The position numbers and the translations under genes were made by a program. A stretch of 49,380 nucleotides of DNA, taken from contig NZ_JADEXQ010000041.1 in assembly GCF_015207035.1 (NCBI RefSeq), forward strand, positions 1 to 49,380. The letters are read 5' to 3'. This stretch comes from Romeriopsis navalis LEGE 11480 (GTDB taxonomy: Bacteria; Cyanobacteriota; Cyanobacteriia; Leptolyngbyales; Leptolyngbyaceae). This document shows positions 21,561-24,810 of this stretch, in pieces. The notes under the pieces were generated by a model. That model did no database searches and was not told where the DNA came from. It saw only the letters and a list, made by a program, of their open reading frames with translations. Positions within the stretch are counted from its first letter, which is position 1; every line of letters begins with the position of its first letter.

Positions 21561-22187
21561 ATGTTAAAGCTTCTGCCATCCCAAACAGTTACTAACCAAG
21601 ACCCCCAGCCTGAAGTGGCGGTTACCGTTACTCAACCCCGTCGCATCCATCCCTGGAAACCCAAAACTTATCGGTTTAACCGGGGTGATCAGCTTCCGGA
21701 TTATGGGGATCTGCTGTGGCAGATTACCGATGGTTACGTGCGCAACATCACGTGGACTAAGGATGGAGAAATGACGACGCTTGGAATCTGGGGCGAATAT
21801 GACTTCCTCGGTCATGCCTTATCGATCGTTACACCTTATTGCCTTGAATGCATCACACCGGTCACGGCAGTGCTTTGTGCCTATCCGATTAATCGCATGC
21901 ACGAGATTTTGCTCCATAATGCGCAGCAAACGGAAAAGCTCCTGGCCATTTCCCACGAACGCCAAGTTTATGAACGACTACGATCGTTGCTCACTTGGCT
22001 AGCGCGCCGATTTGGGGAATCCGCACCCGCTGGTCGAATGCTCAAAATTGGTTTGACGCATCAACAACTGGCGGATCTTGCTGGCACAACTCGTGTTACT
22101 GTCACCCGTTTTATGCAGCAGCTTGAACGAGATGGCTGGATTAAGCGATTGCCCAAGCGCCAAATATTGGTTTACCCCACGTCCTAG
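21561..22187 (+). CDS. Crp/Fnr-family transcriptional regulator
   Basis: A 208-residue regulator. The N-terminal ~120 residues form the cyclic-nucleotide-binding-type beta barrel (FNRGDQLPDYGDLLWQITDGYVRNITWTKDGEMTTLGIWGEYDFLG), followed by a dimerisation helix and a C-terminal winged helix with LTHQQLADLAGTTRVTVTRFMQQLERDGWI (~168-197). There is no FNR-type N-terminal Cys cluster. The cAMP phosphate-binding signature (GE.ALL...PR.A) is not recognisable, so the effector is unknown. NtcA is similar in the HTH but differs elsewhere. Its target may be the neighbouring genes, which is inference. Confidence 0.88.
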   Translation: MLKLLPSQTVTNQDPQPEVAVTVTQPRRIHPWKPKTYRFNRGDQLPDYGDLLWQITDGYVRNITWTKDGEMTTLGIWGEYDFLGHALSIVTPYCLECITPVTAVLCAYPINRMHEILLHNAQQTEKLLAISHERQVYERLRSLLTWLARRFGESAPAGRMLKIGLTHQQLADLAGTTRVTVTRFMQQLERDGWIKRLPKRQILVYPTS

Positions 22188-22210: not shown

Positions 22211-22501
22211 TTAGATGTTGTTTGCTTGTGGACTGATCGCAATACATTTTGTCAGTGCCTGGTTCAATGCCACATGCTCACCCGATGCGAGCTGAACAAT
22301 TGCCGAACCGCGGGCTGACAAGCTCATCACTTCAACAATCGTACCCATCATCAAGCCAGAATGGCTTAACTGCATATCCGCTGCGCCCAAACTCACAACC
22401 GTTCCGATCGTGCCAACCGTTGCTTGAGTCAGAGCAACTCGTTCTGGAACGATCGTGGGTGAAACCGTTGTGACGAAATCAACCGAAGACTGGAATGCCA
22501 T
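22211..22501 (-). CDS. FeoA-domain protein, no FeoB nearby
   Basis: A ~96-residue protein with an SH3-like FeoA domain: LTQATVGTIGTVVSLGAADMQLSHSGLMMGTIVEVMSLSARGSAIVQLASGEHVALNQALTKCI matches the family pattern of G..G.V, a leucine-rich turn, 'G..pG..v.v', and a terminal 'l....a..I'. FeoA helps FeoB import ferrous iron. The frame is open to 22546; Met at 22501 is preferred. No feoB is present in this window. It converges on the Crp/Fnr gene (24 bp apart). Confidence 0.75.
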   Translation of the reverse strand: MAFQSSVDFVTTVSPTIVPERVALTQATVGTIGTVVSLGAADMQLSHSGLMMGTIVEVMSLSARGSAIVQLASGEHVALNQALTKCIAISPQANNI

Positions 22502-22529
22502 TTCACACTTGAGGAATGAAGTTAGAAAA

Positions 22530-22554
22530 TTGCAATTAATTAGCAATATTGCAA
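22530..22554. promoter_or_regulatory. Nested TTGCAA/GCAAT repeats upstream of feoA-like gene
   Basis: TTGCAA occurs at both ends of this 25-bp segment, ATTGC pairs with GCAAT inside it, and GCAATATTGC is a perfect 10-bp palindrome. It lies 29 bp upstream of the preferred start. It could be an operator; it does not match the Fur consensus well. Confidence 0.35.
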
Positions 22555-22946: not shown

Positions 22947-23876
<930 letters not shown>

Positions 23877-24498: not shown

Positions 24499-24663
24499 CT
24501 ACCACTCGAATCGGCCACTGCCACGGTAGGCGACGATCGTTGCTGCAGAATTTTCGGTTTTTGCTTCCGTCGTCGAGCTCTGGATTAACGCTGCAGTGCC
24601 CAATACGGTCGACAGAACCAGGCCGAATGCGGCCAAAGAGATTTGATAGCGCATAGTAGTCAT
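24499..24663 (-). CDS. patX: PatX-like exported RGSGR peptide precursor
   Basis: A 54-residue protein. Residues 1-28 form an export signal: MTTMRYQ, then the hydrophobic ISLAAFGLVLSTVLGTAALI. Residues 29-46 are a polar linker (STTEAKTENSAAT), and the C-terminus is AYRGSGRFEW with RGSGR at 47-51, three residues before the stop. RGSGR is the active pentapeptide of PatS that binds and inhibits HetR; a signal-plus-C-terminal-RG[ST]GR protein encoded near hetR is the definition of PatX in filamentous cyanobacteria. Location (same strand as hetR, 652 bp upstream) and architecture agree. No clear Shine-Dalgarno precedes ATG 24663; ATG 24654 is an alternative. Chance occurrence of RGSGR here, in such a frame, beside hetR is very unlikely. 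Confidence 0.9.
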   Translation of the reverse strand: MTTMRYQISLAAFGLVLSTVLGTAALIQSSTTEAKTENSAATIVAYRGSGRFEW

Positions 24664-24694
24664 GAAAAAGTCTGTGTTGGTGTGTAACTAACTA

Positions 24695-24722
24695 CTCATA
24701 CGAGGTCTACGTAGACTGTCAG
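24695..24722 (-). promoter_or_regulatory. patX promoter with palindromic operator in the spacer
   Basis: On the minus strand CTGACA (-35, at 24722-24717) and TATGAG (-10, at 24700-24695) are 16 bp apart. The spacer contains GTCTACGTAGAC, a perfect 12-bp palindrome at 24705-24716. A protein bound there would block or remodel RNA polymerase. The boxes match the consensus at 5/6 and 4/6. Confidence 0.45.
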
Positions 24723-24810
24723 GACAATCAACTCAAAAATCTCTTGCTTTATTTGGCCGCGGCAGAATGAAACTCGCTATACAGGCTGATTCAAAAGCTC
24801 AAAAGCGATC

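Follow-up and report, generated by a model that had tools for sequence, protein, structure and literature searches.

A conserved patX gene upstream of hetR in Romeriopsis navalis LEGE 11480, and PatX precursors with up to nine peptide units

A 49,380-nucleotide stretch of the Romeriopsis navalis LEGE 11480 genome (hereafter the window) carries, on the minus strand and upstream of hetR, a short gene that its conservation marks as a real patX, as had been proposed from a sequence-only reading of the same DNA. We consider it likely (roughly 0.8) that this gene encodes an exported precursor that would be cut to the peptide YRGSGR and restrain HetR much as in Anabaena. A PatX beside hetR is already published and is expected in a filamentous cyanobacterium; the parts worth specialist attention are a gene with tandem peptide units elsewhere in the genome (on contig C4) and a paired difference in the peptide and in HetR.

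The window gene and its conservation beside hetR

The window sits on contig C41 of the 6.47-Mb genome (99.5% complete), and the features discussed are collected in Table 1. The patX frame translates exactly to MTTMRYQISLAAFGLVLSTVLGTAALIQSSTTEAKTENSAATIVAYRGSGRFEW*, reproducing the 54-residue minus-strand protein ending in AYRGSGRFEW that the sequence-only reading had described, with RGSGR at residues 47-51 and three residues before the stop. Relatives align to the second ATG (MR..., 51 residues), and the promoter distance of 61 or 70 nt is compatible with either start; by eye, no Shine-Dalgarno-like stretch was seen before ATG 24663 or ATG 24654, in keeping with the earlier remark that no ribosome-binding site was obvious. 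An N-terminal export signal had also been assigned: a hydrophobic stretch is indeed present (best 17-residue Kyte-Doolittle mean of 2.06, residues 11-27, after Arg5), and the signal peptide itself is a prediction from hydropathy alone. Of the marks of PatX in the usage of Khudyakov and Elhai, the gene has the RG(S/T)GR motif in a genome with hetR and, judged by hydropathy, the hydrophobic part of a Sec-type signal. The HetR protein scores 564.8 bits against NF009718 (cut-off 489) and is the genome's single HetR match; the gap between the two genes came to 652 bp when re-measured, the distance previously given, with patX upstream on the same strand.

Table 1. Features of the window and the second PatX-like gene on contig C4
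Feature	Position	Strand	Details
patX ORF	24499..24663	-	54 codons from first ATG (24663), 51 from ATG at 24654
RGSGR codons (CGT GGC AGT GGC CGA)	24511..24525	-	Tyr before, Phe-Glu-Trp-stop after
TCCTGA, DIF1-like -35 element	24719..24724	-	61 nt before first ATG; one base off TCCGGA
GTATGAGTAGTTAG, second conserved promoter block	24688..24701	-	GTA 17 nt after TCCTGA
hetR	22947..23846	-	299 aa; NCBIfam HetR equivalog NF009718
FeoA-domain protein	22211-22546	-	just downstream of hetR
CRP-family regulator	21561-22187	+	just downstream of hetR
Second PatX-like gene	G000:C4:66493-66795 (L119, 2494-2799)	+ (L119)	six tandem R[G/A]SGR units

A search of 42 family genomes (that of Romeriopsis navalis included) found hetR in 41, and 40 of these were read upstream of it; in the remaining one, G001, hetR lies at the edge of a contig. 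In 38 of the 40 stretches, an RGSGR ORF on the strand of hetR, with an ATG over 20 residues ahead of the motif, lies 231-912 bp upstream of hetR; G017 (L204) and G056 (L206), both of genus g18, have hetR and no RGSGR ORF in the 2.5 kb upstream, and their patX may lie elsewhere in the genome or have been lost. As a control for chance, the same 40 stretches held four other ORFs with R[GA][STA]GR, none of which had an ATG that far ahead of it. All 52 motif copies in the 38 genes read RGSGR, in a search open also to Ala in the second and Thr in the third position, and two to five synonymous codons are used at each of the five positions; this restriction to synonymous change indicates selection on the motif at the protein level. 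The sequence-only reading was to be given up if close relatives lacked the frame or if the RGSGR codons bore no sign of selection, and both results went the other way.

Behind the motif, the next residue is I, R, V or F in 33 of the 38 family genes and the one after it E, Q or D in 34; the FE of the C-terminal FEW, a tail singled out earlier for comparison, is thus ordinary in the family, and the EW ending is also present in G043. The closest named relative by HetR (92%) is Alkalinema sp. RU_4_3 (G009), which comes out as sister with weak support (87/67). With the motif removed, the N-terminal part of the window PatX matches its counterpart there with a score of 66 (z 9.5 against shuffles), the runner-up among 37 family proteins reaching 32 (z 3.4).

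The position, motif and promoter of hetR-linked patX are conserved in other families as well. From 329 named hetR loci 80 were kept, some of them the same contigs as family genomes, and patX is linked to hetR in 52; the remaining 28 include Nostocales (e.g. L097, L099, L100, L102), Planktothrix (L077, L080, L082) and Laspinema (L092, L093), and some of them have a short upstream stretch (e.g. L106).

The patX promoter and the NCBIfam PatX model

In Anabaena, the DIF1 hexamer TCCGGA at -35 is described as driving patS, hetR and patX in a HetZ-dependent manner (PMC7377430). The hetR-linked patX genes read here have one common promoter hexamer, nearly always TCCTGA: it lies upstream of 38/38 family genes, in 37 of them between -68 and -58 relative to the ATG; in the exception, G042, it stands at -26 when counted from the frame's first ATG and, in the counterpart record L047, at -56 from a later ATG. 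None of the 38 has within 150 nt upstream the form TCCGGA, whose presence in the -35 region is among the marks of PatX in the usage of Khudyakov and Elhai, and the 15 exact copies in the window (13.4 expected) include none near patX. A GTA or GAA follows TCCTGA in all 38 genes, 18 nt on in 34 and 17 nt on in four, the window gene (GTA) among the latter. As a background rate, TCCTGA stands at -70 to -50 of 116 of 11383 ATGs (1.0%) from 62 sources, patX genes included. Every one of the 52 hetR-linked patX genes in the 80 named loci has TCCTGA or TCCGGA at -72 to -50, and 79 of 110 non-family rows have a linked R[G/A][S/T]GR ORF, with TCCTGA at -75 to -48 in 78 of the 79 (exception L333). The longer pattern TCCKGA-N18-GTA-N7-WTAG matched seven times over four genomes and not once in the reversed control; the matches are the C4, G023 and G040 genes and four places with no RGSGR ORF seen behind them, and the pattern missed the window gene (spacer 17) and that of G009. 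A literature search found no paper linking TCCTGA to patX or to cyanobacterial DIF1.

A profile of known PatX proteins, the check suggested by the sequence-only reading, left the window protein under its cut-off: against the NCBIfam heterocyst_PatX equivalog NF047413 (cut-off 30 bits) it scores 18.2 bits, or 18.8 in the 51-residue form. Of the 38 family PatX proteins, 22 reach E ≤ 0.05 against this model, the best of them 5.7e-5; E ≤ 9e-7, by our extrapolation about 30 bits, is reached by none. Searching the Romeriopsis navalis genome with the NCBIfam PatX model put the window gene fifth (E 8.6) and the C4 gene nowhere, and also gave matches in 12 of 14 control genomes; we discarded this search as useless. 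In a published survey based on Pfam and NCBI models with trusted cut-offs, one class, for which a Leptolyngbya is cited, has hetR and lacks patX, and the complete patP-patX-hetR pattern is assigned to Nostocales, Gomontiellales, Spirulinales and Oscillatoriales (PMC12756182). Since the NCBI model misses all 38 family proteins tested, the published class may in part be a cut-off artefact, taking the profile used there to be such a model.

A tandem-unit gene, multi-unit precursors and the HetR pocket

The second PatX-like gene of the genome is unlinked to hetR, which is on C41. Its product has a signal-like N-terminus, MKTQSSLCAAIALGFTASVLAIAGAVNHKSTAEVQT, followed by six units, in order AYRASGRFE, AQRASGRFE, ANRGSGRFE, ANRGSGRLE, ANRGSGRFE and AYRASGRFG, so that three are RASGR and the residues preceding the motif are Tyr, Gln, Asn, Asn, Asn and Tyr; the units differ by many synonymous changes in addition to Gly/Ala, Phe/Leu and Glu/Gly. 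The promoter has TCCGGA (C4:66410) 83 nt before the ATG and GTA 18 nt on. With the motif removed, the likeness of its N-terminus to that of the window PatX is weak (score 34, z 3.0), and the case for common descent is therefore made by the motif and the promoter type. At the DNA level, a loose RGSGR pattern gave 248 matches over the genome, fewer than the 493 of its reversed control, and is uninformative alone; extended by codons for a hydrophobic and an acidic residue, it gave seven (the window gene, five of the C4 units and one place in C45, taken as chance) against 14 in the reversed control, the count again being uninformative and only the clustering telling; by this pattern the C4 gene is the genome's one further cluster.

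The C4 gene stands between Ccs1-like and VanZ-like genes (both named by eye). In G009 these two adjoin with nothing between them, the Ccs1-like frame being split in two; the G023 Ccs1-like gene has a different neighbour and no RxSGR ORF, and G040 gave no match. At E ≤ 0.001, a search of the 42 family genomes with the C4 protein matched, apart from the protein itself, just the G023 and G040 tandem genes, no tandem second gene being detected in G009. By this comparison the gene was either gained in the lineage of the window or lost in G009, and the comparison supports the assignment of contig C4 to the Romeriopsis navalis genome.

In the family, 34 hetR-linked patX genes carry one unit, and the others carry two (G042), three (G014), five (G040) and eight (G023). 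G041 (L184), counted as single-unit, has a decayed unit reading RGSDR besides its intact RGSGR, as though unit loss were under way. Our non-family sample of 110 rows consists of 80 taken among 110 listed non-family places (the best of a longer list, ranked by likeness to the window HetR, with most f32 rows left out as guessed heterocyst formers), 28 loci from 26 genomes, several of which were chosen as matches to a tandem-protein query, and L218 and L037. Of the 104 rows that reach 1 kb or more upstream, 78 have a linked patX preceded by TCCTGA, and 27 of those have many units. Family and non-family rows together thus give 31 many-unit hetR-linked genes among 116, with up to nine units, which is a count and not a frequency, the set being non-random and rich in close relatives. 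Nine RGSGR units, the highest number seen, occur in the hetR-linked genes of L299 (G349) and L300 (G189), whose HetRs are identical. In the class sample, 33 of 388 genomes match the G023 tandem protein at E ≤ 0.001; of 30 loci fetched (L137-L166), 29 (not L166) contain an ORF with two or more R[G/A][S/T]GR units and 23 contain a HetR match. A literature search found no text on multiple RGSGR units, and the founding paper of Elhai & Khudyakov 2018 may already describe them.

Units reading RASGR are hetR-linked in G377, and unlinked behind TCCGGA in G033 and G097. The G377 gene (L308) has four RASGR units (ERASGR three times, ARASGR) with no RGSGR seen; those of G033:C74 (L219) and G097:C162 (L220) lie behind TCCGGA-N18-GTA and encode signal-like proteins, each with five YRASGR and three YRGSER units, and no hetR was found in the stretch fetched for either.

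In the structure of the HetR Hood with PatS6, the peptide is described as held by E253, E254, D256, D270 and D278, with R223 by its C-terminus (PMC4649674). The window HetR keeps R223, E253, D256, D270 and D278, as do 40/40 family HetRs and 98 of 110 outside the family, and has Ala in place of E254. Seven family genomes, among them that of the window, have Ala or Thr at residue 254, and 33 have Glu; in a tree built with this residue masked, the seven group as a single clade (the window clade) with support of 100/99. Tyr precedes the first RGSGR in all seven, and His does so in 30 of the 31 other family genomes with patX, the exception being G046 (Tyr with Glu254); G023 has His before three of its eight units despite its place in the clade.

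Across the class, Ala254 occurs in 12 of 150 rows and, by eye, in three lineages, namely the window clade (Tyr), G088 (Tyr) and f11; on a quick tree it needs four label changes, of which firm branches, with long ones among them, force only two. For the f11 hetR genes with Ala254, the 234-3514 bp read held no linked patX, and two of the five f11 genomes, G033 and G097, have the unlinked YRASGR genes mentioned above. G097 encodes two HetRs, one with Glu254 and a linked HRGSGR and one with Ala254. Single-unit genes with Glu254 have His in 63 cases, Tyr in 5, Asn in 5 and Asp in 2, Thr254 outside the window clade is paired with His, Glu, Arg or Ala, and G031 combines Val254 with Tyr. The three His units of G023 weaken the pairing of Tyr with Ala254, as does the combination of Tyr and Glu254 in G046 and in four non-family genes, and the pairing suggests, from this comparison of sequences, co-change in a few independent events and no more. 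Two further ties did not hold up: RASGR with Ala254 is ruled out by G377, where HetR has Glu254, and multi-unit precursors go with a changed residue 254 inside the family only, 22 of the 27 such genes outside it having Glu254. Elsewhere, HetR of genus g53 (L330, L333, L335, L336, L338, L339) has Asn at 256 and 278, both peptide-contact positions; a linked RGSGR ORF is present in five of the six, L338 having only 357 bp upstream.

For Anabaena HetR, the E254A change is reported to weaken PatS6 binding about eightfold (12 to 91 nM), with DNA release still occurring (PMC4649674); such weaker binding would fit, short of proof, a need for more peptide. A tentative reading, to which we give less than even odds, is that the HetR ligand was rebuilt in the window clade as a dosage-expanded system, with many-unit precursors, a change from His to Tyr together with Glu to Ala/Thr at residue 254, and a co-adapted receptor, in a filament without heterocysts. 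Under a different reading, which we hold to be unlikely, the six-unit C4 gene with its canonical promoter is now the main peptide source and the window gene a fading copy; multi-unit hetR-linked genes in four of the seven clade genomes, the window genome not among them, would fit this, but the window gene has kept its frame, motif and promoter, its G009 counterpart also has one unit and no detected tandem companion, and three of the C4 units are RASGR, putative HetR ligands only.

Proposed role and comparison with known systems

In Anabaena, PatX is described as being exported and processed by PatP, with HRGTGR binding to HetR (PMC12756182). By analogy, the pre-protein of the window patX would be exported by means of its hydrophobic N-terminal segment and then cleaved, outside the cytosol, by a PatP-like peptidase to the hexapeptide Tyr-Arg-Gly-Ser-Gly-Arg, which would move from cell to cell and inhibit HetR; each precursor from the C4 gene would supply this pathway with up to six units, of which three are RASGR. 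The sole nif gene sought, nifD, gave no match over the cut-off in the 99.5%-complete genome (one match, 50.9 bits vs 653.55), so the patX/hetR pair probably does not serve heterocyst patterning and the role of the window patX is probably in filament growth or breakage (necridia), as proposed for non-heterocystous strains (PMC12756182).

The transcriptomes of the non-heterocystous Leptolyngbya BL0902 argue, by analogy, against simple HetR inhibition by PatX: the effects of patX are presented by their authors as largely independent of HetR and, for those groups of genes on which patX and hetR had opposite effects, deleting patX alone or together with hetR gave like results, contrary to deleting hetR (PMC11298460). 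Thus, of the complete HetR/PatX activator-inhibitor pair put forward by the sequence-only reading, the conserved hetR-linked patX stands, and the pairing is drawn by analogy only, with a second, multi-unit PatX-like gene elsewhere in the genome. That a real patX would act mainly on a non-HetR target in non-heterocystous filaments, its proximity to hetR being shared history, is the reading towards which the BL0902 double deletion points, but we regard it as quite unlikely given that the five contact residues from R223 to D278 are kept throughout the family, including a genome with no nifD over the cut-off, that peptide residue and HetR 254 both differ in the window clade, and that RGSGR is invariant in 52 copies. 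A chance ORF containing RGSGR, short, with no ribosome-binding site seen and under the NCBIfam cut-off, is a negligible prospect against a position, strand, motif, synonymous change and promoter conserved in 38/40 family stretches and in other families.

Nor is it credible that the gene is a relative of PatS or HetN, with which it has RGSGR in common: Pfam and NCBIfam scans of the window protein gave no PatS or HetN similarity outside that motif, the only Pfam match being weak (E 0.1), to an unrelated family and under the cut-off. PatS has RGSGR at its C-terminus and no known export signal, and HetN is a larger, enzyme-like protein, whereas the window PatX, at 54 residues, has a hydrophobic N-terminus, runs on for three residues beyond RGSGR and is encoded in the hetR-linked position of PatX. 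The 17-residue product of PatS is thought to be cut in the cytoplasm (PMC12756182), and HetN carries its RGSGR internally (PMC7761841).

Akin to PatX of Anabaena/Nostoc PCC 7120, the window gene encodes a short protein of exported type with RG(S/T)GR, a companion of hetR with a putative DIF1-type -35 element (PMC7761841, PMC12756182); it differs in having YRGSGR and not HRGTGR, TCCTGA and not TCCGGA, a place physically beside hetR, a score below the NCBI PatX cut-off, and a host with no nifD over the cut-off and a second, tandem-unit gene. Likened by description, the predicted patX of Leptolyngbya BL0902 (GFS31_32390) is also from a non-heterocystous strain, directly upstream of hetR and behind a predicted DIF1 promoter, but is apparently co-transcribed with hetR, in contrast to the 652 bp gap here (PMC11298460). 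An origin of PatX and HetR early in filament multicellularity has been suggested (PMC7761841, PMC12756182), and the present data form a compact, testable set on this pair without heterocysts, with natural precursors of one to nine units and, in the window clade, a paired natural difference in the first residue of the ligand and in HetR contact residue 254. The nearest counterpart, patX of Alkalinema sp. RU_4_3 (L039, G009:C253), has the same place, a similar start (MRYQIS/MRAHIS), AYRGSGR, TCCTGA and a HetR with Ala254; it differs in a longer tail after RGSGR (IDPMGETSPSNI) and in that no tandem second gene was detected. Yeast alpha-factor is a multi-copy peptide precursor, and like it the C4 gene, G023 and the f13 PatX have a signal-like segment followed by repeated peptide copies; they differ in being bacterial, with short units, an intracellular receptor and only putative cleavage of the repeats. 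If the tentative reading of the window clade is true, its dosage-expanded HetR ligand would parallel, in a bacterium, the multi-copy peptide prohormones.
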